A stretch of DNA of 31,079 nucleotides, from positions 1 to 31,079 of the IMG/VR virus record IMGVR_UViG_3300014502_000023, one strand, 5' to 3'. Below are positions 14,164-25,962 of this stretch, piece after piece (the stretch's first letter is position 1; every line of letters begins with the position of its first letter). This DNA is from a virus. The notes beneath the pieces are model-generated. The model saw only the letters and a list, made by a program, of their open reading frames with translations, did no database searches and had not been told where the DNA came from. The position numbers and the translations under genes were made by a program.

Positions 14164-15900
14164 TCAGTTCCAGGGTTGGTTGCGGGCGTCGATGCCGCGC
14201 CGGTAGGCGGCCAGACCACCCGCGCCCGACAGTGCCGAGGCCGCCACCAGGACGGCCCCGCGCCGGGCGTTACCGGGCTTGAACGCGATCCCGCGGGCCT
14301 TGCGCCCGCCCTCGTCACTGACGTGCCGGGTGATGGTGCGCGCGGCCCGGTCCCCGGTGACCAGCGCCGTCCCGGCCCCGATCCCGGCGTAGGTGCCCAA
14401 GCGACGCTGCCGGTCGGCCTCCGGATCGAAGCGCCGATAGGCCTTGTCCAGCACGCTCACCCTGCTCGACCCCGGAGCGTGGGAGATCGCGAAGCCGACC
14501 CCGCGGTCCTTGTTGAGTTCGCGGACATCGATCGCCCGCTGGTGACCGGCCGCGGCCCGGCGGGCCCCGGCGAAGGTGGCCACCCCGGCCCCGGCCAGAG
14601 CTGTCGCCCCGCCGATGTAGGTGGCGTTCGGGGCCCGCCGGACCAGGTGCCCCGTGTTCGCCAGTGTGGGCCGGATCCGGGTGAGCCGGTGCTGGTGGGC
14701 GAACCGGCGCACCGCCGCGAACTCGGAGTTCACCCCGTGCGGATCATCCGCGTAGACCCCGGCGGCGGACCCGGCAGCCAGGCCGGTCGCGCCGGCCGAA
14801 AGCGCCATCGCCCGGTGGTTGCCCCGTTGGGAACGCTCGTGCCCGCGGGCCGCCACCGTGATCGGGTCACCGACGTAGCGCGCCGCCTTGCCCACGCCCT
14901 GGCGCTTGTGGCGCAGATAAAGGCCGGCCGGAATGCCCACTGCCGCACCGAGCCCTGCGCCGGCAGCCATCAGGCGCCCGGTGGAGATTCGGGGGGCGGA
15001 CATCGGGGTGAGCTGTAAGGGTTTGGGTGTGATCCGGAGGGGTTTCGCCCTGATGGCCTCGAAATCGCGCAGCAACTGCTGGTGGCTCTCGCGCCTCACC
15101 TTGTTGGACCCCTCGGTCAGCATCTGCGAAAACTGTGCCTGAGCAGCAGCGTTGTGCTCTGGGGACCGCATACTCCAGTGCGTGGGGTATCGGACGTTGG
15201 CTTTGATCGCGTCCCAGTCGGGCGGGGGATTGTCGAACACATGCTTGCCCTTGGCGACCGGCTGGCGCTTGCGCTTGCGGTAGTACAGCCCGCCTGCGCC
15301 ACCGAGCGCCGCGCTGACCCCGACGTTGGCGGTCATGCCCAGTGCCATCGCCTGGCCGCGGGTGATGCCGGAAAACCCGCGCGAGCGGCTCTCCACGCCA
15401 ACATGTGTCCTAGCAGGAGGCCGAAGATCGTGCGGAAGCGGCAACCATTCGCTGTCGTCGACGTGCCTCAACGGAGGAGGACGGCGGCTAAGAGGCGGAA
15501 ACGGCCGGGCCTTGGACACGCCGGTGTCGAGCAGAAGGCTGACGCCGTGGCCGTCGCCGCGCTTGGCCACCGGGGCGGGTTGTTGGGCGATCTGGTTGTT
15601 GATGGATCTGCGGGCCATCACATCTCCTACGACTTCGGCGCCGTGGAAACCGGTCCAGCCGATCGCTGCGGCGGCGGCCAACGGTCCGGCTTTGGGCAAC
15701 TTCGCTGCGGCGTTCTTGACGGTGGCCGGGATCAGCTTTCCGGCGGCGGTCTTGATCGGTGCGGTGACCGCGGCCGAGCCGGGGATCTTCTCGGCGGCCT
15801 GGCCGATGGCGTGCACGCCGCCGATCATGGCGGCGGTGTTCATGGTCCTGGCGGCCCTCAGCTCACCGGGGGACTGCTGCTTGACCTGCCCGCTGCTCAT
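14164..15900 (-). CDS. Head-region protein with multiple Gly/Ala-rich hydrophobic segments
   Basis: A 578-aa protein. The ATG at 15900 makes an ATGA overlap with the preceding gene; the longer frame to 16392 lies inside other genes. About seven Gly/Ala-rich hydrophobic stretches are spread along it (near residues 72-92, 184-206, 310-328, 365-383, 428-447, 502-516 and 548-566). Many are followed by basic clusters, for example GAGGLYYRKRKRQ and PAGLYLRHKRQ. Long Arg/Pro-rich connectors lie between them. There is no signal peptide and no recognised enzyme motif. Its place between protease and scaffold genes suggests a capsid component. The hydrophobic segments could insert into the host membrane at infection, a property known for internal ejection proteins of other phages, but here this is inference. 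No named family is recognised. Confidence 0.75.
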   Translation of the reverse strand: MSSGQVKQQSPGELRAARTMNTAAMIGGVHAIGQAAEKIPGSAAVTAPIKTAAGKLIPATVKNAAAKLPKAGPLAAAAAIGWTGFHGAEVVGDVMARRSINNQIAQQPAPVAKRGDGHGVSLLLDTGVSKARPFPPLSRRPPPLRHVDDSEWLPLPHDLRPPARTHVGVESRSRGFSGITRGQAMALGMTANVGVSAALGGAGGLYYRKRKRQPVAKGKHVFDNPPPDWDAIKANVRYPTHWSMRSPEHNAAAQAQFSQMLTEGSNKVRRESHQQLLRDFEAIRAKPLRITPKPLQLTPMSAPRISTGRLMAAGAGLGAAVGIPAGLYLRHKRQGVGKAARYVGDPITVAARGHERSQRGNHRAMALSAGATGLAAGSAAGVYADDPHGVNSEFAAVRRFAHQHRLTRIRPTLANTGHLVRRAPNATYIGGATALAGAGVATFAGARRAAAGHQRAIDVRELNKDRGVGFAISHAPGSSRVSVLDKAYRRFDPEADRQRRLGTYAGIGAGTALVTGDRAARTITRHVSDEGGRKARGIAFKPGNARRGAVLVAASALSGAGGLAAYRRGIDARNQPWN

Positions 15901-16220
15901 CAGGCGCTGCCCCGTCCCAGTGGGGAGTACAGGGCGGCACGACCCTCGGCGTAGCGCTGTTCGAGGCGGGCGCGGCGGCGTTTCTGCCGCCGGGACAGGT
16001 GCTCCCCGGCCAGGGCTGCCTCGGACTCGACCATCAGGGCCCCGGCCGCGTACATCGCCAGCGGGTTGATCGGGGCCGGGCGGGGGTGGGCGTACCCGAC
16101 GCCGTCGCCGCTGTAGGGGAAGACCAGGGCGGGGGCGGGATCGGCCTTGCCGACCTCGACGCTGCCCTGGTTGGGCCAGGCGGTGACCCGCGCCAGCCGG
16201 GGGACCAGACGGGCGCTCAC
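15900..16220 (-). CDS. Small basic protein after the protease gene, unknown
   Basis: A 106-aa protein with GTG at 16220, overlapping the protease stop as GTGA and the next gene as ATGA. The first half has SVEVGKADPAPALVFPY and a Pro-rich stretch (AHPRPAPINPLAMYAAGAL). The second half is a highly basic helix, LSRRQKRRRARLEQRYAEGR. The basic helix could bind DNA or an acidic partner inside the procapsid. No family is recognised. Its coupling on both sides shows it belongs to the head operon. Confidence 0.65.
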   Translation of the reverse strand: MSARLVPRLARVTAWPNQGSVEVGKADPAPALVFPYSGDGVGYAHPRPAPINPLAMYAAGALMVESEAALAGEHLSRRQKRRRARLEQRYAEGRAALYSPLGRGSA

Positions 16221-17005
16221 GCGGTCCCGGCCATCGCGTCTTCGTAGGGCACCGACTCACGCCGTCCGCGGCCGTGGATGGAGAACCCGGTCCGCCGGCC
16301 ATCCTTGATCGCCTTCCAGGCGTTCTCGTCGTGCACCTGGTAGCCCACCCACCAGCCGACCGGAGTGTCAGCCGGAAGGCCCATCTTGGCAATCTTCTCG
16401 GGGGTGACGACGAAGGACTCGATCATGTCGGAGGTGGCCAGCGGGATCCCGGTGTCGGTGTCGCTGCGGTCGCGCTCGTGCATGTCCCCGCCGATCCGGG
16501 ACTTGCGCACGTAGGTGTACGCGGCGGTCTCCAGGTCGTCGGGGGCGATGATGTCGCCCTGCTTGTCCAGCACCGGTACCCCGGCGATCTCGACCACCGA
16601 GGCCCAGCCGAAGACCTGCCGCTTGTCGGTGTCGGTCTTGGAGAACTCCCCGTACCACCACACGTCCACGCCGTCGTCGCCGGTCTTGGTGACCGGGGTG
16701 GGCGCCTGCTTGGGGACGGGCAACGGTGGCGGGGTCGGCGCTGTGGAAACCTTGATCGGGACGCCGCCCGCGGCGGGCACCAGGGCGCCCCTCTTGCGCG
16801 GCACCAACCGACCTGCTGGTGCGGGTGCGCCGGGGGTGGACATGTCGGCCCCGACCGGGGCGGCCTTGGAGATCCCGTCGAGGCCGTACAGGTAGTGCCA
16901 GGCCGCGTCGGCGTCCACGACGTCGCCGAACAAGGTGGTGCACAGGTCACGGAAGCCGGGATCGACCCCGTGCAGCGCCTTGACCATGGTCACGGAGTCC
17001 GCCAC
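16217..17005 (-). CDS. Prohead maturation protease, XkdF type
   Basis: A 262-aa protein with GTG at 17005 and GAGGT about five bases upstream. Residues 1-110 are a helical then Pro-rich leader. The peptidase domain (about 118-250) has EFSKTDTDKRQVFGWASV, VLDKQGDIIAPDDLETAAY, GGDMHERDRS, MIESFVVTPEKIAKMG, VGWWVGYQVHDENAWKAI and TGFSIHGRGRRE. This string of motifs is the XkdF-like (Peptidase_S78_2) family of phage serine proteases. His176 and Ser197 are candidates for catalysis, judged from their conserved surroundings. The enzyme should process scaffold and other internal proteins during head maturation. The long Pro-rich leader may be a procapsid-targeting part removed by self-cleavage (inference). 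Confidence 0.9.
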   Translation of the reverse strand: MADSVTMVKALHGVDPGFRDLCTTLFGDVVDADAAWHYLYGLDGISKAAPVGADMSTPGAPAPAGRLVPRKRGALVPAAGGVPIKVSTAPTPPPLPVPKQAPTPVTKTGDDGVDVWWYGEFSKTDTDKRQVFGWASVVEIAGVPVLDKQGDIIAPDDLETAAYTYVRKSRIGGDMHERDRSDTDTGIPLATSDMIESFVVTPEKIAKMGLPADTPVGWWVGYQVHDENAWKAIKDGRRTGFSIHGRGRRESVPYEDAMAGTA

Positions 17006-17020
17006 GAGTACCTCATTTCG

Positions 17021-19255
17021 CTATGTAGTCTCATCATCGCTTACCGTGACCTCGAAGGCGCGGAACAGCGGGCTGTCGCCTACCTGTGCCAGATCGGCCA
17101 GCTCCTGGCCCTCGTGCAGCGGGAACAGCTCGGACAGGTCGGCGGCGTCCACCCGGCGCAGCGCGAAGGGCGTTCCCTCGATCATGGCGGCGGTGGCGGC
17201 GGCGGTCCCGAACACCAGGGTCTGGGGCTGGGCCGACCGCACCCCGACGGTCTGCGCCAGATACCCGGAGCCGTCCTTGCTGCGCACAGTGGTGGCGGTC
17301 CACTCGTACTCGTCATCGCGCCGTCGGGCGAAGGCATAGTCGTCGGCCTCGTTCTGCGCGACCTCCTCGGTCGGGTAGACCCGACCGGTGCTGGTGTCCA
17401 CCTTGCGCTCGTCCTTGGCCTCACGAGCGACCGTGCGCATGATCGAGCCCAACGCACGGTCGGGGGTGGTCAAGGTGTCGACGGCCATCAGGTCCCGGGC
17501 TTCACTCGGTCGCACCGGCGTGACGTCGAGCTGGTCACCGGTCTCGCTGATCTCGTCGGGATGCAGGTCGACAAAGGCGCTGAACTCGTTGTCGGTCAGC
17601 ACGAACGCATGGGTGATGGTGTGGTTCTGGTAGCTGGCACCGGCCTCCTCCTGCGCGGTGCCCGAGGCCAGCACCCGCCCGAGGGCGCGTTGGGCCACCG
17701 TCCTGGCGGCCCGCTGGCGCTCACCGGGAGCACGTCGCAACGTGGCCAGTTGGTCCTGCTGCTGGCGCGCCGTGGTGGTCGCCGGGGCGGCCAGGGCGAC
17801 CAGGCGCCCTTGGGTGACCTGGCGACGCTGGCGGTTCTGGCGGCGCTGGCGCGACCGGGTGCGGCGCGTGATCGGGGAAACGTCGGCGTCGGTGAACTGG
17901 CCGTCGGCGGCGCGGGGGTGCTCGCCGGGGTCGAAGTTTTTGATCACCGGGAACGGCGGCACGCCCATCAGCTGATCGATGTTCGTGACGTACACCGAGT
18001 AGACCTCTACCGGGCGCCCGTAGTGCTCGGGGTAGTCCGGGTGGCCGCCGGGGTTGGACAGGGTCAGCCGCTTGGGGTCCTTGGCGATGGCCATCACCGC
18101 GTCGGGGTGGATCACGGCGCCCCCGTGGTCGTCGGGGCCGCCACCGACCGCTGGGGTGCCGAACCGGAATTCGAGCATCCTCGGCGCCGGACCCATGCTG
18201 GGACCGCCGTAATCCTGGGTGATCGCGTCCAGGCTGTACGCGGCGACAGTGTCCTTGACCAGGTGTTCGAGTCCGGCCTTGGTGAAACGAGCGGCCTTCA
18301 GCAGGGCGTCGATGTCCACGTCCGCCGGCAGAGGCACGTAGATGTCCTGGTTGAGCATGTGCGGCGTCTGGCTGGAGGTCACCCGCGCCGGTTCGGCTTC
18401 GACCGCCAACTGGTTGCGTTCGGCCCGGGACCTGGACGCCCGCGCCCGATCGGGCTCGGTTCGTGCGACGCGGGCACGTTCGGCCCCGGAGCGGCGGGCC
18501 AGGAAGCCGAGCTGGTCGATCTGCTCGGCGGCAGAAGATGCTGCCGGGGCCCCGGCGACCCTGGCCCCGATCCCGCGGACGACGGCGACCTGACGGCGTT
18601 GACGGTCCTGGCGGGCCGACCTGCGGCGGCGCCCGCCGGTGGGATCGGCGGAGAAGCGGCCCTCTTCGTCGCGGGGGTGCTCGTCGGGGTCGAACTCGGT
18701 GGCGCCGGGCCCGGCGGACTTGGCGACCGGCTCGGCGCGGTGCCGGGCGGCGAACTGGGCGGCGTAGCCCATCAGCACCCGGTCGGCGGCGTCCGCGGTC
18801 ACCAACGCCGGGGTGGTCTCGGTCCGCGGCGTGCCCGCGTAGACGCCCAGGTGGGACAGCGGGACGGCGTGCACGGCCCCGGCCCGTGCCAGTGCCAACG
18901 GCCACGGGGTGCCGGAGCTGGTCCAGACCGCCGCCAGCCGGGCGGTGGCCGCGCACGCCTGCTCGTGCAGCCCGGTGGCCAGCCCCATCGCGTCCTCGCC
19001 GTGTGGCAGGGCCGCGGCCATCGCCTTGGCGACCGGTTGCAGGTCGATCCGTCCCAACGCCGCCGCCAGGACGGCGCCGTCGACCAGGGTGGTGGCGGCA
19101 AGTGGCACCAGCTGGGCCTGGGCCAGGGCGTGGTAGCCCAACAGGGCCGCCCCGATCGCCTGTTCGGGGTCACCCGGATGGGCGGCGACCGCCTCCAGGA
19201 CCGCCGTCCCGGCGTCCGGGTCGGTCCACCACCGGGGCGCAATCACCGGGCTCAC
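17021..19255 (-). CDS. Large head-region protein with an internal duplication, unknown
   Basis: A 744-aa protein, GTG at 19255 overlapping the AAA+ gene stop as GTGA. Residues 1-180 are Ala-rich and helical. Two related modules, residues about 188-272 and 441-526, each begin FDPxEHPR, continue with a GxF turn, then a very basic Arg/Gln stretch (RQDRQRRQ and RQNRQRRQ), then a helix with a DQL...R..GER...ART pattern. The phrase EHPRDEEGRF is of a kind seen in several phage structural and head-morphogenesis proteins. After each module comes a distinct mixed domain (about 290-437 and 535-744); the first contains YVPLPADVDIDALLKAARF, the second HAFVLTDNEFSAFVDLHP. No catalytic motif is evident. 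A DNA-binding or capsid-internal role is possible because of the basic stretches. Confidence 0.75.
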   Translation of the reverse strand: MSPVIAPRWWTDPDAGTAVLEAVAAHPGDPEQAIGAALLGYHALAQAQLVPLAATTLVDGAVLAAALGRIDLQPVAKAMAAALPHGEDAMGLATGLHEQACAATARLAAVWTSSGTPWPLALARAGAVHAVPLSHLGVYAGTPRTETTPALVTADAADRVLMGYAAQFAARHRAEPVAKSAGPGATEFDPDEHPRDEEGRFSADPTGGRRRRSARQDRQRRQVAVVRGIGARVAGAPAASSAAEQIDQLGFLARRSGAERARVARTEPDRARASRSRAERNQLAVEAEPARVTSSQTPHMLNQDIYVPLPADVDIDALLKAARFTKAGLEHLVKDTVAAYSLDAITQDYGGPSMGPAPRMLEFRFGTPAVGGGPDDHGGAVIHPDAVMAIAKDPKRLTLSNPGGHPDYPEHYGRPVEVYSVYVTNIDQLMGVPPFPVIKNFDPGEHPRAADGQFTDADVSPITRRTRSRQRRQNRQRRQVTQGRLVALAAPATTTARQQQDQLATLRRAPGERQRAARTVAQRALGRVLASGTAQEEAGASYQNHTITHAFVLTDNEFSAFVDLHPDEISETGDQLDVTPVRPSEARDLMAVDTLTTPDRALGSIMRTVAREAKDERKVDTSTGRVYPTEEVAQNEADDYAFARRRDDEYEWTATTVRSKDGSGYLAQTVGVRSAQPQTLVFGTAAATAAMIEGTPFALRRVDAADLSELFPLHEGQELADLAQVGDSPLFRAFEVTVSDDETT
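17678..17935 (-). repeat. Duplicated FDPxEHPR / Arg-Gln-rich module, copy 2
   Basis: Encodes residues about 441-526 of the same protein: FDPGEHPRAADGQF, then RRTRSRQRRQNRQRRQ and the DQLATLRRAPGERQRAART helix. The copies differ at many residues, so the duplication is old. Confidence 0.75.
18440..18694 (-). repeat. Duplicated FDPxEHPR / Arg-Gln-rich module, copy 1
   Basis: Encodes residues about 188-272 of the 744-aa protein: FDPDEHPRDEEGRF, then a basic stretch and a helix. It aligns with the second copy at 17678-17935 over roughly 85 residues, with the order of motifs kept. Confidence 0.75.
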
Positions 19256-20136
19256 GTGCCACCGCGTGGGCCCGGCACGGGCTTCCTGGTGCGTCCGGTC
19301 GGGACCAGGGCTCCCTTGGGCGGCAACGAGGACTCCATCAGCTCACCGGCCCGGGTGAAGTCGGCCGCGGTCAGCGTGGTCAGGGAAGCGGTGGGGTCGG
19401 AGGCGATCCGGGTGGCCCGCGCCCTGCTGGCGTGCTGCAGCAGCTGGCGCACGTCCCGGGCGTTGCCGGTGCCCCGGGCAGCCACGGTGGACAGGGCAGT
19501 GCTGAACGCCTTGGAGGCGGCCGGGTCGGCGAAGGTGTTGCCCTCGGCGGCCAATTGCTTGCGGGCGATGGTGGCCAGTTCGGCCCGGGAGTAGTCCGGG
19601 AAGTGGATGGTGCGTGAGAACCGGGACCGCAGGCCGGGGTTGGAGGCGAAGAACGCATCCATGCTCTGGTGGTTACCGGCGTCCGCGGTGCCGTCCTCGG
19701 AGCCGTACCCGGCCAGGATGACCACGGTGTCGTCGCGGTGGGCCTCGGCCTGGGCCAGTAGGACCGCCTGGGCCTCCTTGCCGTAGTCGTCGTGCGGGCC
19801 GCCGTTGAGCGAATACGCCTCGTCGATCAGCAGCACCCCGCCGCGGGCGGAGTCGAACACGGCCGCGGTCTTGGCCGCGGTCTGGCCCTGGTAGCCGCCG
19901 ACCAGGTCCTTGCGGGACACCGGCACCACGGTGTCCTTGGGCAATATCCCGGCCGCGTGGTAGGCCGAGGCGATCAGGTGCGCGACAGTGGTCTTGCCGG
20001 TGCCGGGGTTGCCGGTGAACACCAGGTGGGAGGCGATCGGCTCCTGCGGCAGCCCCGCCATCTGCCGGCGGCGGGCCACGATCGCCGAGTCGATCAAGGC
20101 GTCGAGCTCGTCCTTGACCGGGTCCAGGCCGGTCAT
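19252..20136 (-). CDS. AAA+ ATPase, CbbX/SpoVK/EccA type
   Basis: A 294-aa ATPase with all main AAA+ elements: Walker A GNPGTGKTT (residues 42-50), the CbbX-type loop VGGYQGQTAAKT (79-90), Walker B VLLIDEAYSL (101-110), a sensor-1 strand VVILAGYGSE, the NPGLRSRFSRTIHFPDYS box with arginine-finger candidates near 170-172, and a sensor-2-like GNARDVRQLL helix near 215. This order is the signature of CbbX (Rubisco activase), SpoVK and the EccA protein of type VII secretion, which use ATP to remodel partner proteins. No Rubisco or ESX genes are here. Its place among head genes suggests it remodels capsid or internal proteins (inference). ATG 20136 is the first standard start, but the frame stays open upstream without one. 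It is the only gene of this block not overlapping its predecessor. Confidence 0.92.
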   Translation of the reverse strand: MTGLDPVKDELDALIDSAIVARRRQMAGLPQEPIASHLVFTGNPGTGKTTVAHLIASAYHAAGILPKDTVVPVSRKDLVGGYQGQTAAKTAAVFDSARGGVLLIDEAYSLNGGPHDDYGKEAQAVLLAQAEAHRDDTVVILAGYGSEDGTADAGNHQSMDAFFASNPGLRSRFSRTIHFPDYSRAELATIARKQLAAEGNTFADPAASKAFSTALSTVAARGTGNARDVRQLLQHASRARATRIASDPTASLTTLTAADFTRAGELMESSLPPKGALVPTGRTRKPVPGPRGGT

Positions 20137-20186
20137 GGCGTTGATCCGGGCCTGGACGGCGGCCAGCTTGGTGGCATCGATCGGGC

Positions 20187-23100
20187 CTAGAGAGGCGCCA
20201 GCCCCTTGGCCACCCTCGCGGCCACCAGTTGGGACAAGGGGTGGTCGGGGCGCAGCACCCGCAACTGCGGGCGGGCCGGGGTGGCCGACTTGCCGAACGG
20301 CTGGTCGGGGATCTGGCCGGGATCCGCCAGTCCCCGTAGTGCTTTTGGGAGGGTCGCCTCCCCGTCCAGGTAGCCGACGCCGCGGGCGACGGTGACCAGG
20401 GTCCAGGCCCGTTGCAGGTCCAGGGCCCGTTCGGTGGGTTCCTCCCTCAGCCCGAGCACGTCCAGGTCGCCGGGTTCCACCCCCATCGCGGCGGCGGCGG
20501 CGCCTCGGCTGGTCTTGGACCGCATCAAGATGTTGTCGATGTTCGCGGGGGTGATGGACCCGGACCGGGAGCGTTCCTCGGTGCGCGCCAGCGCGGCGGC
20601 CTGGTTGAGCGCTGCCAGGGTGGTGACCTGTTCGCTGACGTGTTCGGCGACGTCGACCAGCCCGGCCCGGCCGCCGACCTCCAGGCCGATGGAGTGCGCG
20701 GCGGCCACCGCCCGTTTACCGTCGAAGGTGTCCGTCCAGGCGGCCAGCGCCCCGGCGTGGTCCAGGTTGACGATCTCGGGCAGCCCCTGGGCGCGCGGCC
20801 CGGTGTGGAAGGCGGCCTGCTCGCCGGTCTTGGGGGCGGTGAACGGGGCGGCCATGTAGGTCAGGTCGGCGATCTCGCGGCCCTTGAGGCGCATCGCGGC
20901 GACCGCGTCGGCCATGGTGGTGGCCCCGAAGATGGTGTTGCCGTTCTTGACCCCGCCCTCGCCGAAGAAGTCCTCCCCGCCATTGGCCCCGAACACCTTG
21001 TCCAGGGCGGCCTCCATCTTGCCGGGGGCGGTCAGGACCGCGGCCACCCCTTCGGGGTCGGCGGCCAGGGCCTCTTGCCATTGCTGCTGGTCGGCCTCGG
21101 CCAGGTAGGCGGCCTTGTTCGACCCGGCGGTCTCCCAGGTGGTGCCGCGGGCCCCGGTCAGGTCGGCGGTGCCGGTCAGGCGGCCCACCTCGTTGGCGAA
21201 GGTGGTGGCCAGCTTGTCCCGGGTGGCCTCGAACACCGGGGCGTCCCCGGCCAGGCGGGCCCCGAGCCGGCTGGAGGCGTCCGGGGCGTTGTCAGACGCC
21301 ACGGCGGCAGCAGTCCCAGGATTGACCGGTCCGGGCCCAGCCGGAGTCGGGCGGTCGCCACCGGTGGGAGTGGCCGGCGGGGCGCCGGTGGTCGCCAGGG
21401 TCGCGGTAGCGACCCGGTCCTCCCAGTAGGCGCCGCGCGGCTTGGACCTGTTCGGTCCGCCCCGGTCGTTGCCCCCGGCGGTGATGCCGCGGGGCTTGAC
21501 GTACCCGGCGTCGGTGGCGCCAGTGCGCTGGCGGACCCCGGCGCGCACGTCCTGTCCGCGGCTGGCCAGGAAGCCCGGTCCGGTCTTGGACGTCAACGGC
21601 TCGTAGGTGGCCGAACGGATGAAGTACGGGTACTGCCCGGCCAGGGTCTGGATCGCCAGGTCGTAGCCCTCGGCGTTCAAGGTCAACGGGGTGGCGGCGT
21701 CGTCGTGGTGGGCGGTGACCAGTTCCTCGTAGATGTCGTTGACCCGCAACGCCTTGGCCTGGCTGCTGAGCTGGTTGTAGCCCATCGAGGCTGCGGCGCT
21801 GGCCTGGGCCTTCTCCCCCAGGGCGGCCATCGTGTCCTCGTCGATGGTGCGCGACTCACGTACCGCGGTGGCGGTGTACTCGGCCTCCAGCCGATCCACC
21901 TCCTCCGGCTTCTCCCCGATCCGTTCGGCCCGCGCCCGGATGCTGGCCCGCTGGGCCGGAGGCAGCGGCTTGGTGTAGAGCCCGGAGCCGTCCACGGCGT
22001 CCAGGATCCGCACGTACGCCTCGTACATGCCGTGCGCCTTGTCGCTGTTCGCCCGCCCGCCCCGGAAACTCGGGTCGAACTCCAGGGAGTACACCCCGGA
22101 GGAGGAGACCACGGTGACCATCCGGGCCCCGGCGCGGACCGCGGTGTAGACGTCCTCGGCGGTCAGGCCGCCCTGCTGGCGGGTGCGCACGTACTGCCCG
22201 CCGCGCAGCCCGTTCAGCCCGGCCAGGTCGAAGGGCAGGTAGTGGTCGTCCCCGGTGCCCACCGACTGGGAGGTCAGGTCCCCGTCGGCGTCGATGATGA
22301 CGCCCTGGCTGGGCAGGGTGCGCCCCGAGGCCCGGGAGACCGCGGCGGTGAACGGGTTGTCCGGCAGGGTGGACAGCAGGTGGTGGGCGGCGACGTCGGC
22401 CCGGGTGCCGAGCACGGTGGCGTCCCCGGAGATGGGTTGGCCCGAGCGCAGCTGGCGGGCGACCTGGTAGCGGAAGGCCCCGGCGACCGGGTCCATCCGG
22501 TTGTCCCGGTTCCCGGCCGGGGCGAGCGTCCCCGAGCCGGACCCGTTGGCGGCCAGGGTCTGCGCCAGTTCGGGCAGCGCGTCCGGGTGCGCGGCGGCGG
22601 TGCGGGTGATCACGCCCATCTCCCGGCTGCGCAGGGCGGCGGCCAGGTCGGCGTCCGGTTCCTTCTCGGTGCCCCGGTAGCGGTACCCGGCGCGTTGCAC
22701 GTGCGGGCCGAGGACCTTCTCGGCCTGCGGTCCGACGTCGCCGACGAACTGGGCCATGTGGCTCATCTTCGAGCTGGGGTCCAGGGCGCCCAGCACCTTG
22801 CCGCCGGAGGAGATCTGGCGGAACAGCCGGGTCAGCCGGGAGTCGGTCGGGGCGGCGTCGGTGAAACTCTGGGCCAGACCCGACCACTTCTCGCTCGGGA
22901 CGTTGGCCAGCCGGGCCATGCTCATCCCGCCGGTGGCCCCGACCGCGTTGAAGTGGGCCACCCGGGAGTCGATCTCGGTGGAGGCGCCGGGCTTGGCGTC
23001 GATCTCCACGCTGATCAGGGAGTCTTCGAGTTTCCAGGCGGCCGAGTGCGGGATCCCGTTCTTCAGCTCCGACAGCGGGAAGACGATCTCGGAGATCTTG

Positions 23101-23778: not shown

Positions 23779-25962
23779 TCAGCCGATCGAACCGCGGACC
23801 GAGACCATCCGCCCGCCCGGGACACGTCGAACAGTGGACACACGCGGGGTCAGCGCCCGGGTCAGGCCCTTGGGCAGCGCCGGGGCGGTCGGCAACCGGG
23901 GCGGCGCAGCGGCCAGCGCCTTGTCGAAGATCGGCGGCCTCCGGCTCAATTCCCTGTGCTGCTCGACGTACATATGCCGGAACCCAGCGGGCTCCTTGGG
24001 CCTCTGAGCTTGGCGGCGCAGATACGTGTCAAGGTCCACGGGAGTAAGACGAATCTGGGTATTGATCTGTGCCTTGCGCTTGAAGCGCGCAATGCGGGGT
24101 GCACCGGGTACAGCGATGCCCGCCGGCCCCGCCACGAACGGGGTCTTGCGCGAGGACTGCGAGGTGCCCTTCGCGGCGTGGATCTTGTTCTGGGTCGCGG
24201 CGTAGGAACGGGTGGCGTCCAGGTGGGTCAAGGCACCGGCGTCGACAGACCTGCCCAGTTTCTTCCACTCGTCCGGTCGGGCACGCCGGTTGGCCCAGAC
24301 GTGGGCGTGCGCGGCATAGCCACTGACGAAGTCACGGGGGCCCGCATTCGTTATCTTGGCCCGATTGCGGTAGTCAACCCCGGCGGCGGCATCGGCACGT
24401 GCCTCTTCGGCGCCGAGCTTGCGGGGGTTAGTATTGATCTGACCGTGGAGGCGCCACCCCGATCGAGCCGGTGCCGCGTGGGCGCGCTCGTGGGTGAGAA
24501 CGCCCCTCTTGATGTCCTTGCCTTGGCTGCCGTCGGCAATGGTGCTGTCGAGCAGGATGCGCGACGCCCCACCCTTGGCGCTGCCGCGCCGAACCGTCAA
24601 CCCCGCCGCGCCCTGTCGCTGCAAACCCCGGGCCGGGCCGTACCTGGGCGCGTCCGGTACCGGCACACCGTGTGGGTGGGCGGTCTCGGCGTTCGCCAGT
24701 GCCATGTCGTCGCGGGCGGCCGCGTGTTCCGGGGTGACCCCACGCAAGGCGGTGTACCGGTTCTCCCCGGGCGTCGCCGACCACCGCAGGCGGATCTTGG
24801 GAATGGCGGTGGCCTTCTTCCAGCCGACATCGGGAATGTAGGACTTGAACACCTCCGGGGCCAGGTGGCCGGGGGTGCGGCCTTCGCCGTAGACCCCGGT
24901 GCCGGCGCGCTCGTAGGCCTTGGCCTTGATCCGGCCCATCTGCTGGCCCCGGCGCCGGGCGGTCTTGACGTTGCTGGCGGCGGCGGCCCCGGAGGTGGCG
25001 ACCATGGTGGCGCCCAGAGAGGCCCAGCCGCGCCGCCCGCGCTTGAGGGCCTCGGCGGCGTAGTCGGCCCCGGCGGCGGTGGCGGTGGTGTTCAGTACCG
25101 CCGACCCGATCGCCGAACGCCGATCACCCCGCAGCCGGTCATAGCCCAGTTCGGCCTTGGGGGAGATCCGGTCCCGGTAGTGGGACAGGAAACGGTCGTC
25201 GCCCGCCTTGGCGACCCTGCTCGGGGTGGTGTCCAGGGCCTTGACCTCACGGCGCTGCACCCCGGCGCCGTTGAACGCGCCCGCGCTGCCGGTGGCGATC
25301 GAGGCGATCCCGACGGCGTCCGATGCCCGGGTCAACTTCGGTTCGACCGCGATCAGCCGGCCGGCGGCCCGGGTGGAGCGCACCTTGGGGGACAGGTGGG
25401 CCAGTCCGCGGGCGATCTGGGGGATGCGCAGTCCACCGGCGCCCAGTCCCAGCACGCCACCGGCGATGGCGATGTGGGAGGCCCGGCGTTTGCGCGAGAT
25501 CAGCTGCTCGCGGTCGGGGGCCGACATCGGCGCCGAGGGCGCCAACTTGGCGACGGCGCGGTTGCGGGTGCGCGGACCCGGGCCGGTGGCGGGCTGGCGC
25601 GCCGGGTCGGTGCGGGGCTGGTTCCACAGGTCGGCGCCAGTGGCGTGCCGGATGGCGGGGTCCACCAGGTCCGCGCGGGGGTTCAGCCGGTTCACCGGTT
25701 CGGAGTTGCGCCCGAGCAGGCCGTGGATGCCGACCCCGACCAGCGGCAGCCCGGTGGCCTGCAGCCCGCGCCGGCCGGCGAATCCGGCCGCGGTCCGCCC
25801 GATCCCGGCGGGGAGCCTGCGGTGCTTGGCGGCGTGCTTGGTCGCCGACCAGATGGTGGGGGTCCTGGTGTGGCGCAGGTAGACCCCCAGCCCGCCGGAG
25901 GCGGCCAGCATCGCGGCGCCCGCGCCCAGCTGTTCGGCGGAGTTGCGGCGGTCATTGCTCAT
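23779..25962 (-). CDS. Gly/Ala-rich head-region protein with HExxH metallopeptidase-like motif
   Basis: A 727-aa protein with ATG at 25962, coupled to the portal stop as ATGA; the frame extending to 26217 is a shadow. The N-terminus has a glycine-zipper-like segment ending GGLGVYLRHTR (residues 12-33). Further hydrophobic stretches lie near 56-83, 163-180, 215-235, 284-303 and 312-330. Residues 484-530 contain KRGVLTHERAHAAP and then LGAEEARADAAAG: HERAH is HExxH (His491, Glu492, His495), and Glu520/Asp524 fit the ExxxD of gluzincin metallopeptidases about 25 residues later. The sequence before it (SRILLDSTIADGS) resembles the strand that precedes the active helix in zincins. I infer a zinc-dependent peptidase domain within a virion protein. 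The substrate is unknown. The C-terminal 200 residues are basic. Confidence 0.78.
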   Translation of the reverse strand: MSNDRRNSAEQLGAGAAMLAASGGLGVYLRHTRTPTIWSATKHAAKHRRLPAGIGRTAAGFAGRRGLQATGLPLVGVGIHGLLGRNSEPVNRLNPRADLVDPAIRHATGADLWNQPRTDPARQPATGPGPRTRNRAVAKLAPSAPMSAPDREQLISRKRRASHIAIAGGVLGLGAGGLRIPQIARGLAHLSPKVRSTRAAGRLIAVEPKLTRASDAVGIASIATGSAGAFNGAGVQRREVKALDTTPSRVAKAGDDRFLSHYRDRISPKAELGYDRLRGDRRSAIGSAVLNTTATAAGADYAAEALKRGRRGWASLGATMVATSGAAAASNVKTARRRGQQMGRIKAKAYERAGTGVYGEGRTPGHLAPEVFKSYIPDVGWKKATAIPKIRLRWSATPGENRYTALRGVTPEHAAARDDMALANAETAHPHGVPVPDAPRYGPARGLQRQGAAGLTVRRGSAKGGASRILLDSTIADGSQGKDIKRGVLTHERAHAAPARSGWRLHGQINTNPRKLGAEEARADAAAGVDYRNRAKITNAGPRDFVSGYAAHAHVWANRRARPDEWKKLGRSVDAGALTHLDATRSYAATQNKIHAAKGTSQSSRKTPFVAGPAGIAVPGAPRIARFKRKAQINTQIRLTPVDLDTYLRRQAQRPKEPAGFRHMYVEQHRELSRRPPIFDKALAAAPPRLPTAPALPKGLTRALTPRVSTVRRVPGGRMVSVRGSIG

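Follow-up and report, generated by a model that had tools for sequence, protein, structure and literature searches.

How an AAA+ ATPase of the CbbX/SpoVK/EccA type comes to be encoded among the head genes of a phage, and what it could do there, is the question raised by this locus. The window, i.e. the whole stretch of DNA that was analysed, is an entire virus record of 31,079 bases and probably a fragment. A preliminary description had assigned the ATPase to this group, had placed its gene between portal and protease, and had proposed that it may remodel or load its large neighbours, or act in the infected cell after ejection. Our results agree with the family and the place and point to another product: the AAA+ domain most likely represents the C-terminal end of p1218-AAA, a -1 frameshift product of the upstream gene, rather than a free chaperone.

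The AAA+ domain and its gene neighbourhood

The AAA+ open reading frame (19252-20136, minus strand) matches Pfam AAA (1.4e-15) and AAA_lid_6 (1.6e-9), both beyond the curated cut-offs, and its top solved-structure matches are CbbX (3syk and 3zuh; 5.6e-45 and 8.7e-45) and EccA1 (9lur; 1.5e-38). Among 19 aligned phage AAA+ sequences no variation is seen at the Walker A residues K48 and T49, at the Walker B residues D105 and E106, or at R172 and N225. The AAA core, Walker A and B motifs and AAA_lid_6 lid thus place the domain in the CbbX/SpoVK/EccA group, as first described. It is nevertheless neither CbbX proper nor EccA proper, as the phage sequences group in a separate clade (98/98) that excludes the CbbX rows (two) and EccA rows used. 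The core with AAA_lid_6 is shared with CbbX, the red-type Rubisco activase, whereas no Rubisco neighbour is found among the window proteins scanned and the phage domain is apparently joined to a head-region protein. EccA, the ESX/type VII secretion ATPase, is of the same AAA+ family, whereas the N-terminal partner of the phage domain would be p1218, and neither ESX genes nor a TPR family match were found among the window proteins scanned.

The position between portal and protease is also borne out, both genes being identified by family matches (Table 1), and the order portal - p1218~AAA - p744 - XkdF protease - capsid is fixed in the loci long enough to show it. The AAA+ open reading frame is itself real; what does not hold is its 5' boundary, the frame being open upstream as far as the slip site inside p1218.

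Table 1. Features of the head module in the window.
Feature	Position	Strand	Basis
Portal protein, Mu portal type, 531 aa	25959..27554	-	Pfam Portal_Mu 5e-31; PHROG 113 portal 4e-85
p1218, zero-frame product and first fusion partner, 1218 aa	20187..23843	-	ORF; conserved core
SD-like GGGGAGG, 7 nt upstream of slip heptamer	20357..20363	-	sequence
Slip heptamer CCCAAAA (C_CCA_AAA in p1218 frame)	20343..20349	-	sequence; conservation
Hairpin, 6 nt 3' of heptamer, -21.3 kcal/mol	20306..20336	-	folding vs control positions
Putative -1 frame extension of p1218, ~365 codons, linker + AAA+ domain	19252..20349	-	open frame, slip site to stop
LVPTG in linker, -1 frame	20224..20238	-	translation; copy outside counted motif pattern
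AAA+ ATPase domain, CbbX/SpoVK/EccA type, 294 aa from ATG	19252..20136	-	Pfam, structure matches, invariant residues
GALVPT motif, C-terminal tail of AAA+	19297..19314	-	motif count
p744, in MuF place	17021..19255	-	start overlaps AAA+ stop; ~200 N-terminal aa conserved in AAA-bearing phages
XkdF-type prohead protease	16217..17005	-	Pfam Peptidase_S78_2 1.5e-14; GRLVP + GALVP before protease domain
Conserved head-module protein, 396 aa	12904..14094	-	same place in relatives; PHROG matches weak only
Major capsid protein, 328 aa	11485..12471	-	39-41% identity to annotated major capsid proteins; 36-66% in viral contigs

The start codon of p1218 is uncertain, the protein being of 1218 aa, or of 1192 aa from the next GTG. 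Its core is conserved in 14- and 53-row alignments and contains the motifs DD.YLPF and GG.Y.R.R..GG.T.ED. No sequence match to p1218 was found in Pfam, PHROG or PDB, no relative in the bacterial genomes scanned with its alignment, and no match to either p1218 or p744 in 50,697 phage records. The predicted structure of the core (21444-22826, minus strand; mean pLDDT 82) matches an uncharacterised protein of an uncultured phage (4e-37). Against solved structures, only deaminase/JAB-like matches were obtained, which are too weak (Z about 4-5) for such a function to be read from them.

The p744 protein, well conserved only in its first ~200 aa, occupies the place of MuF-like minor head proteins in the gene order. 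Unlike them, neither p744 nor its relatives scanned have a Pfam match to the Phage_Mu_F domain, which is present in the MuF-type loci, and the profile similarity to the N-terminal helical parts of MuF is weak (hhalign probability 30%, E 5.5e-4, 58 columns). The fold of its N-terminal part matches an uncharacterised protein of an uncultured phage (1e-12), with no convincing solved fold. Two HPRxxxGxF motifs (FDPDEHPRDEEGRF and FDPGEHPRAADGQF), each followed by a basic stretch, are found in p744, and MuF proteins of relatives, e.g. that of locus L117, have comparable ones. Between portal and p1218, a 727-aa protein (23779-25962, minus strand), for which no family match was found, contains an HEXXH motif (GVLTHERAHA) and Gly-rich hydrophobic stretches.

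A candidate slip site near the end of p1218

The first 12 AAA-bearing loci studied all have AAA+ in the -1 frame of p1218, and in each this frame continues open 5' of the apparent AAA+ start. At 99-213 nt 5' of the p1218 stop, every AAA-bearing frameshift locus has the classical -1 slip heptamer CCCAAAA, placed in the p1218 frame, and the -1 frame is open from this heptamer through the AAA+ domain. Just before the apparent AAA+ Met, this frame encodes a conserved helix (K-V--I---L). Over the 76,767 codons of 12 loci, CCCAAAA occurs 12 times in the zero frame, and 11 of these occurrences are at the slip site. It is present once in the window, where one copy is expected by chance (mean 1.19 per window), so that the weight of the argument rests on position and conservation. 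As to the latter, 22 of 23 distinct sites have CCCAAAA and one has GGGAAAA, and the zero-frame tail of p1218 3' of the heptamer is conserved as well.

The flanking signals are more variable. An SD-like element is found in most loci, with about 1% of same-gene positions as strong at the median site in relatives and 3% pairing equally well with the anti-SD in the window; it is absent in L114 and L215. Hairpins lie 3-9 nt 3' of the heptamer, their place being kept while their sequences differ between lineages. Equal strength is reached by 5% of control positions at the median site and by none of 19 in the window; L112 and L198 have weak hairpins. The 71-nt fold of the window has a z of -2.68, and z is near 0 in several relatives by the same measure. 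The locus thus has the conserved X_XXY_YYZ zero-frame heptamer and the open -1 frame of a programmed -1 frameshift gene, together with an SD-like element upstream and structure downstream, the last two not at every site. Tail-chaperone genes of 11 loci served as a frameshift control; none had a canonical heptamer together with a long -1 frame, and this control is uninformative for the slip-site call. Taken together, these signals point to a p1218-AAA fusion that is very probably made by -1 frameshifting near the end of p1218.

The relatives in which these signals are found were obtained by searching with the capsid protein and with an alignment of p1218; none came from scans of viral contigs in which AAA+, p1218 and p744 were used as single sequences. 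Portals of the AAA-bearing relatives are 58-69% identical to that of the window. The hosts of the named phages nearest by portal and capsid include Arthrobacter, and an actinobacterial host would be a guess. Among 61 distinct p1218 loci with a visible gene end, the slip site and an open -1 extension are present in all 25 of p744 type, and the slip site in none of 35 of MuF type. The extension is AAA+ in 21 of the 25 and another sequence in the rest. In the tree of the p1218 core (61 rows), a single group (100/99) unites the 25 slip-bearing rows of p744 type, and inside it are grouped the 21 AAA rows (100/99), all with p744, and the four rows lacking AAA+ (L123, L175, L198 and L215; 99/94). In these four and in L114, the extension consists of other sequence, 61-299 aa long, and no Pfam family scored above cut-off for L114 and L123. 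Slip-bearing loci without AAA+ show that the frameshift does not everywhere require the ATPase. As the slip sites on this tree derive from one event, the loci are non-independent trials, and combined p-values were not treated as if they were independent.

Wherever AAA+ was found, it was accompanied by the p1218 and p744 families, the one exception being a locus where it is fused to p1218. It belongs with the head module and is not spread at random, which answers the co-occurrence check proposed in the preliminary description. Loci found by portal have no AAA+, most being from more distant phages or fragments, and would by themselves have suggested scatter. The single fusion is that of L221, a MuF-type locus where the p1218 core and AAA+ are in one open frame. 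Its AAA+ falls in the phage clade; its p1218 lies within the MuF-type part of the tree, on a long branch whose exact place is unsure. That AAA+ is joined to p1218 in two ways, by the candidate frameshift and in frame in L221, is the strongest argument that the joined protein is the working form.

L110 was rejected as a p744 locus lacking AAA+, its AAA+ being split across the record ends. Its positions 290-2322, between AAA+ and p744, encode a collagen-like fibre and a protein with HESAH (HEXXH).

A possible role of p1218-AAA in head assembly

Judging from how such slip sites work, most ribosomes would complete plain p1218, and a minority would slip by -1 and add to it a linker and an active CbbX/EccA-type ATPase. 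Ring-forming ATPase subunits would in this way be tethered to a protein encoded beside the portal, and the ring could thread or remodel a large neighbour, p744 being favoured, during head building. The extension could moreover be docked to the prohead protease, or later be cut by it, through GALVP-type motifs. Rather than a stray gene, the motor is probably integral to head assembly in this group of uncultured phages. As a whole, the explanation toward which we lean, without great confidence, is that low-level -1 frameshifting gives some p1218-AAA and that its ATPase ring acts in head assembly by remodelling or loading a large neighbour. The assembly or loading role, judged by itself, comes close to an even call. 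The AAA+ family, the intact catalytic motifs, the slip-site signals, the gene order and the in-frame fusion of L221 are read directly from the sequence; we infer actual frameshifting, presence in the particle, the substrate and processing by the protease. The remodelling of large neighbours proposed earlier fits as a role, although not as the work of a free chaperone.

p744 is favoured as substrate because slip site and p744 type go together on the tree. This association being one evolutionary event, it is weak evidence of contact, and a contact between p744 and the ATPase is suggested by gene neighbourhood. GALVP-type motifs are found 14 times in extensions, at both ends and outside the AAA+ core, six times in the protease, which is the next open reading frame, and a single time in the 55,141 aa of remaining proteins, the LVP pattern having been written after examples were seen and being absent from some extensions. 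Docking to, or cleavage by, the prohead protease via these common motifs is conceivable, if doubtful. More tentatively than the explanation as a whole, the fusion might enter the procapsid, load or mature p744 and be handled by the protease via GALVP, the extension being an exchangeable module; the sister group of the AAA rows has other sequence in place of AAA+ in the extension.

Among phage assembly genes, those for tail chaperones and a few for capsid proteins are known to use frameshifting, and certain virus and phage-like particles are known to have AAA+ motors. In lambda gpG/gpGT and in the phage A2 head protein, a -1 frameshift near the end of an assembly gene gives a minor, C-terminally extended product (PMC5009743). 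The frameshift proposed for p1218 would be similarly placed, whereas its extension is an AAA+ ATPase on a portal-adjacent protein and not a tail-chaperone part or capsid component. Pvc15 of the Photorhabdus virulence cassettes, the AAA ATPase of a phage-like particle, loads payloads by N-terminal signals (PMC11495950). It resembles p1218-AAA by analogy; it differs in being a free protein with two AAA domains that serves a contractile tail tube, not a head. ATV p618, a MoxR-type AAA+ chaperone and a virion component (PMC4124505), belongs to an archaeal virus and is proposed to act in extracellular tail growth, unlike the CbbX/EccA-type phage AAA+. In the literature searched, no frameshift was found that joins an ATPase to a head-region protein encoded beside the portal. 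p1218-AAA offers a concrete place for asking whether phages load or mature head proteins with AAA+ motors, and annotation pipelines will cut it into two proteins.

The fusion could alternatively act in the newly infected cell, where p1218-AAA, ejected with the DNA, would remodel a host target or help to pull in ejected proteins. p1218, p744 and the 727-aa protein are indeed large and encoded between portal and protease, the usual place of packaged-protein genes, and ATV p618 offers a precedent in a virion. However, the sequence suggests no host target, and the motif common to extension and prohead protease points to assembly, which makes this action after ejection rather unlikely.

The start of the AAA+ domain and other readings of the locus

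It could also be proposed that AAA+ is a separate protein, started by re-initiation or coupling from the ATG just past p1218, with an incidental slip site. In the window and in 11 more of the 19 AAA loci, a start codon encodes the first domain residue, the p1218 stop is only 17-68 nt 5' of the apparent start, and an ORF finder lists AAA+ as a separate open reading frame. Yet seven of the 19 loci have no start codon at this residue, and SD pairing at the apparent AAA+ ATG is weak. Furthermore, no ATG, GTG or TTG lies between slip site and domain in 11 of the 19 (some being close pairs), as in the window upstream of the ATG at 20136, and L098 and L139 have neither kind of start. Initiation at the ATG would also omit the conserved helix at the N-terminus, present in frame in L221, and would leave CCCAAAA in 22 of 23 sites unexplained. 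The ATG at 20136 is thus probably not the start of a separate protein, and we regard independent initiation as improbable.

An accessory gene, metabolic or anti-host, that lies in the head module by chance would have a parallel in the Arthrobacter phages Edmundo and Ottawa, where RNA ligase, nuclease and RecA-like genes are annotated between portal and capsid. With an identical place of AAA+ in all AAA-bearing lineages, a frame locked to p1218 and the in-frame fusion of L221, this reading is still less credible than independent initiation. Finally, one long p1218-AAA gene split by sequencing or assembly indels, for which the in-frame version of L221 might speak, is next to inconceivable given the identical shift at an identical heptamer in many separate metagenome contigs and the conserved zero-frame tail after it.

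A few records deserve mention. Two contigs, L105/L113 (135,953 bp) and L106/L112 (105,652 bp), each contain two head modules of different relatives and seem to be two phages joined in one record. The record KC960489 ('Mycobacterium phage Adler'; L002), which is circular, unverified and named a phage, encodes an FtsK/SpoIIIE-type gene and an EccA-like AAA+ (15596-19813 and 29902-31803), and could be a plasmid bearing a type VII system and not a phage. In the Streptomyces plasmid NZ_CP016083 (L226), a protein annotated as parallel beta-helix repeat protein contains two AAA+ domains of the same family.
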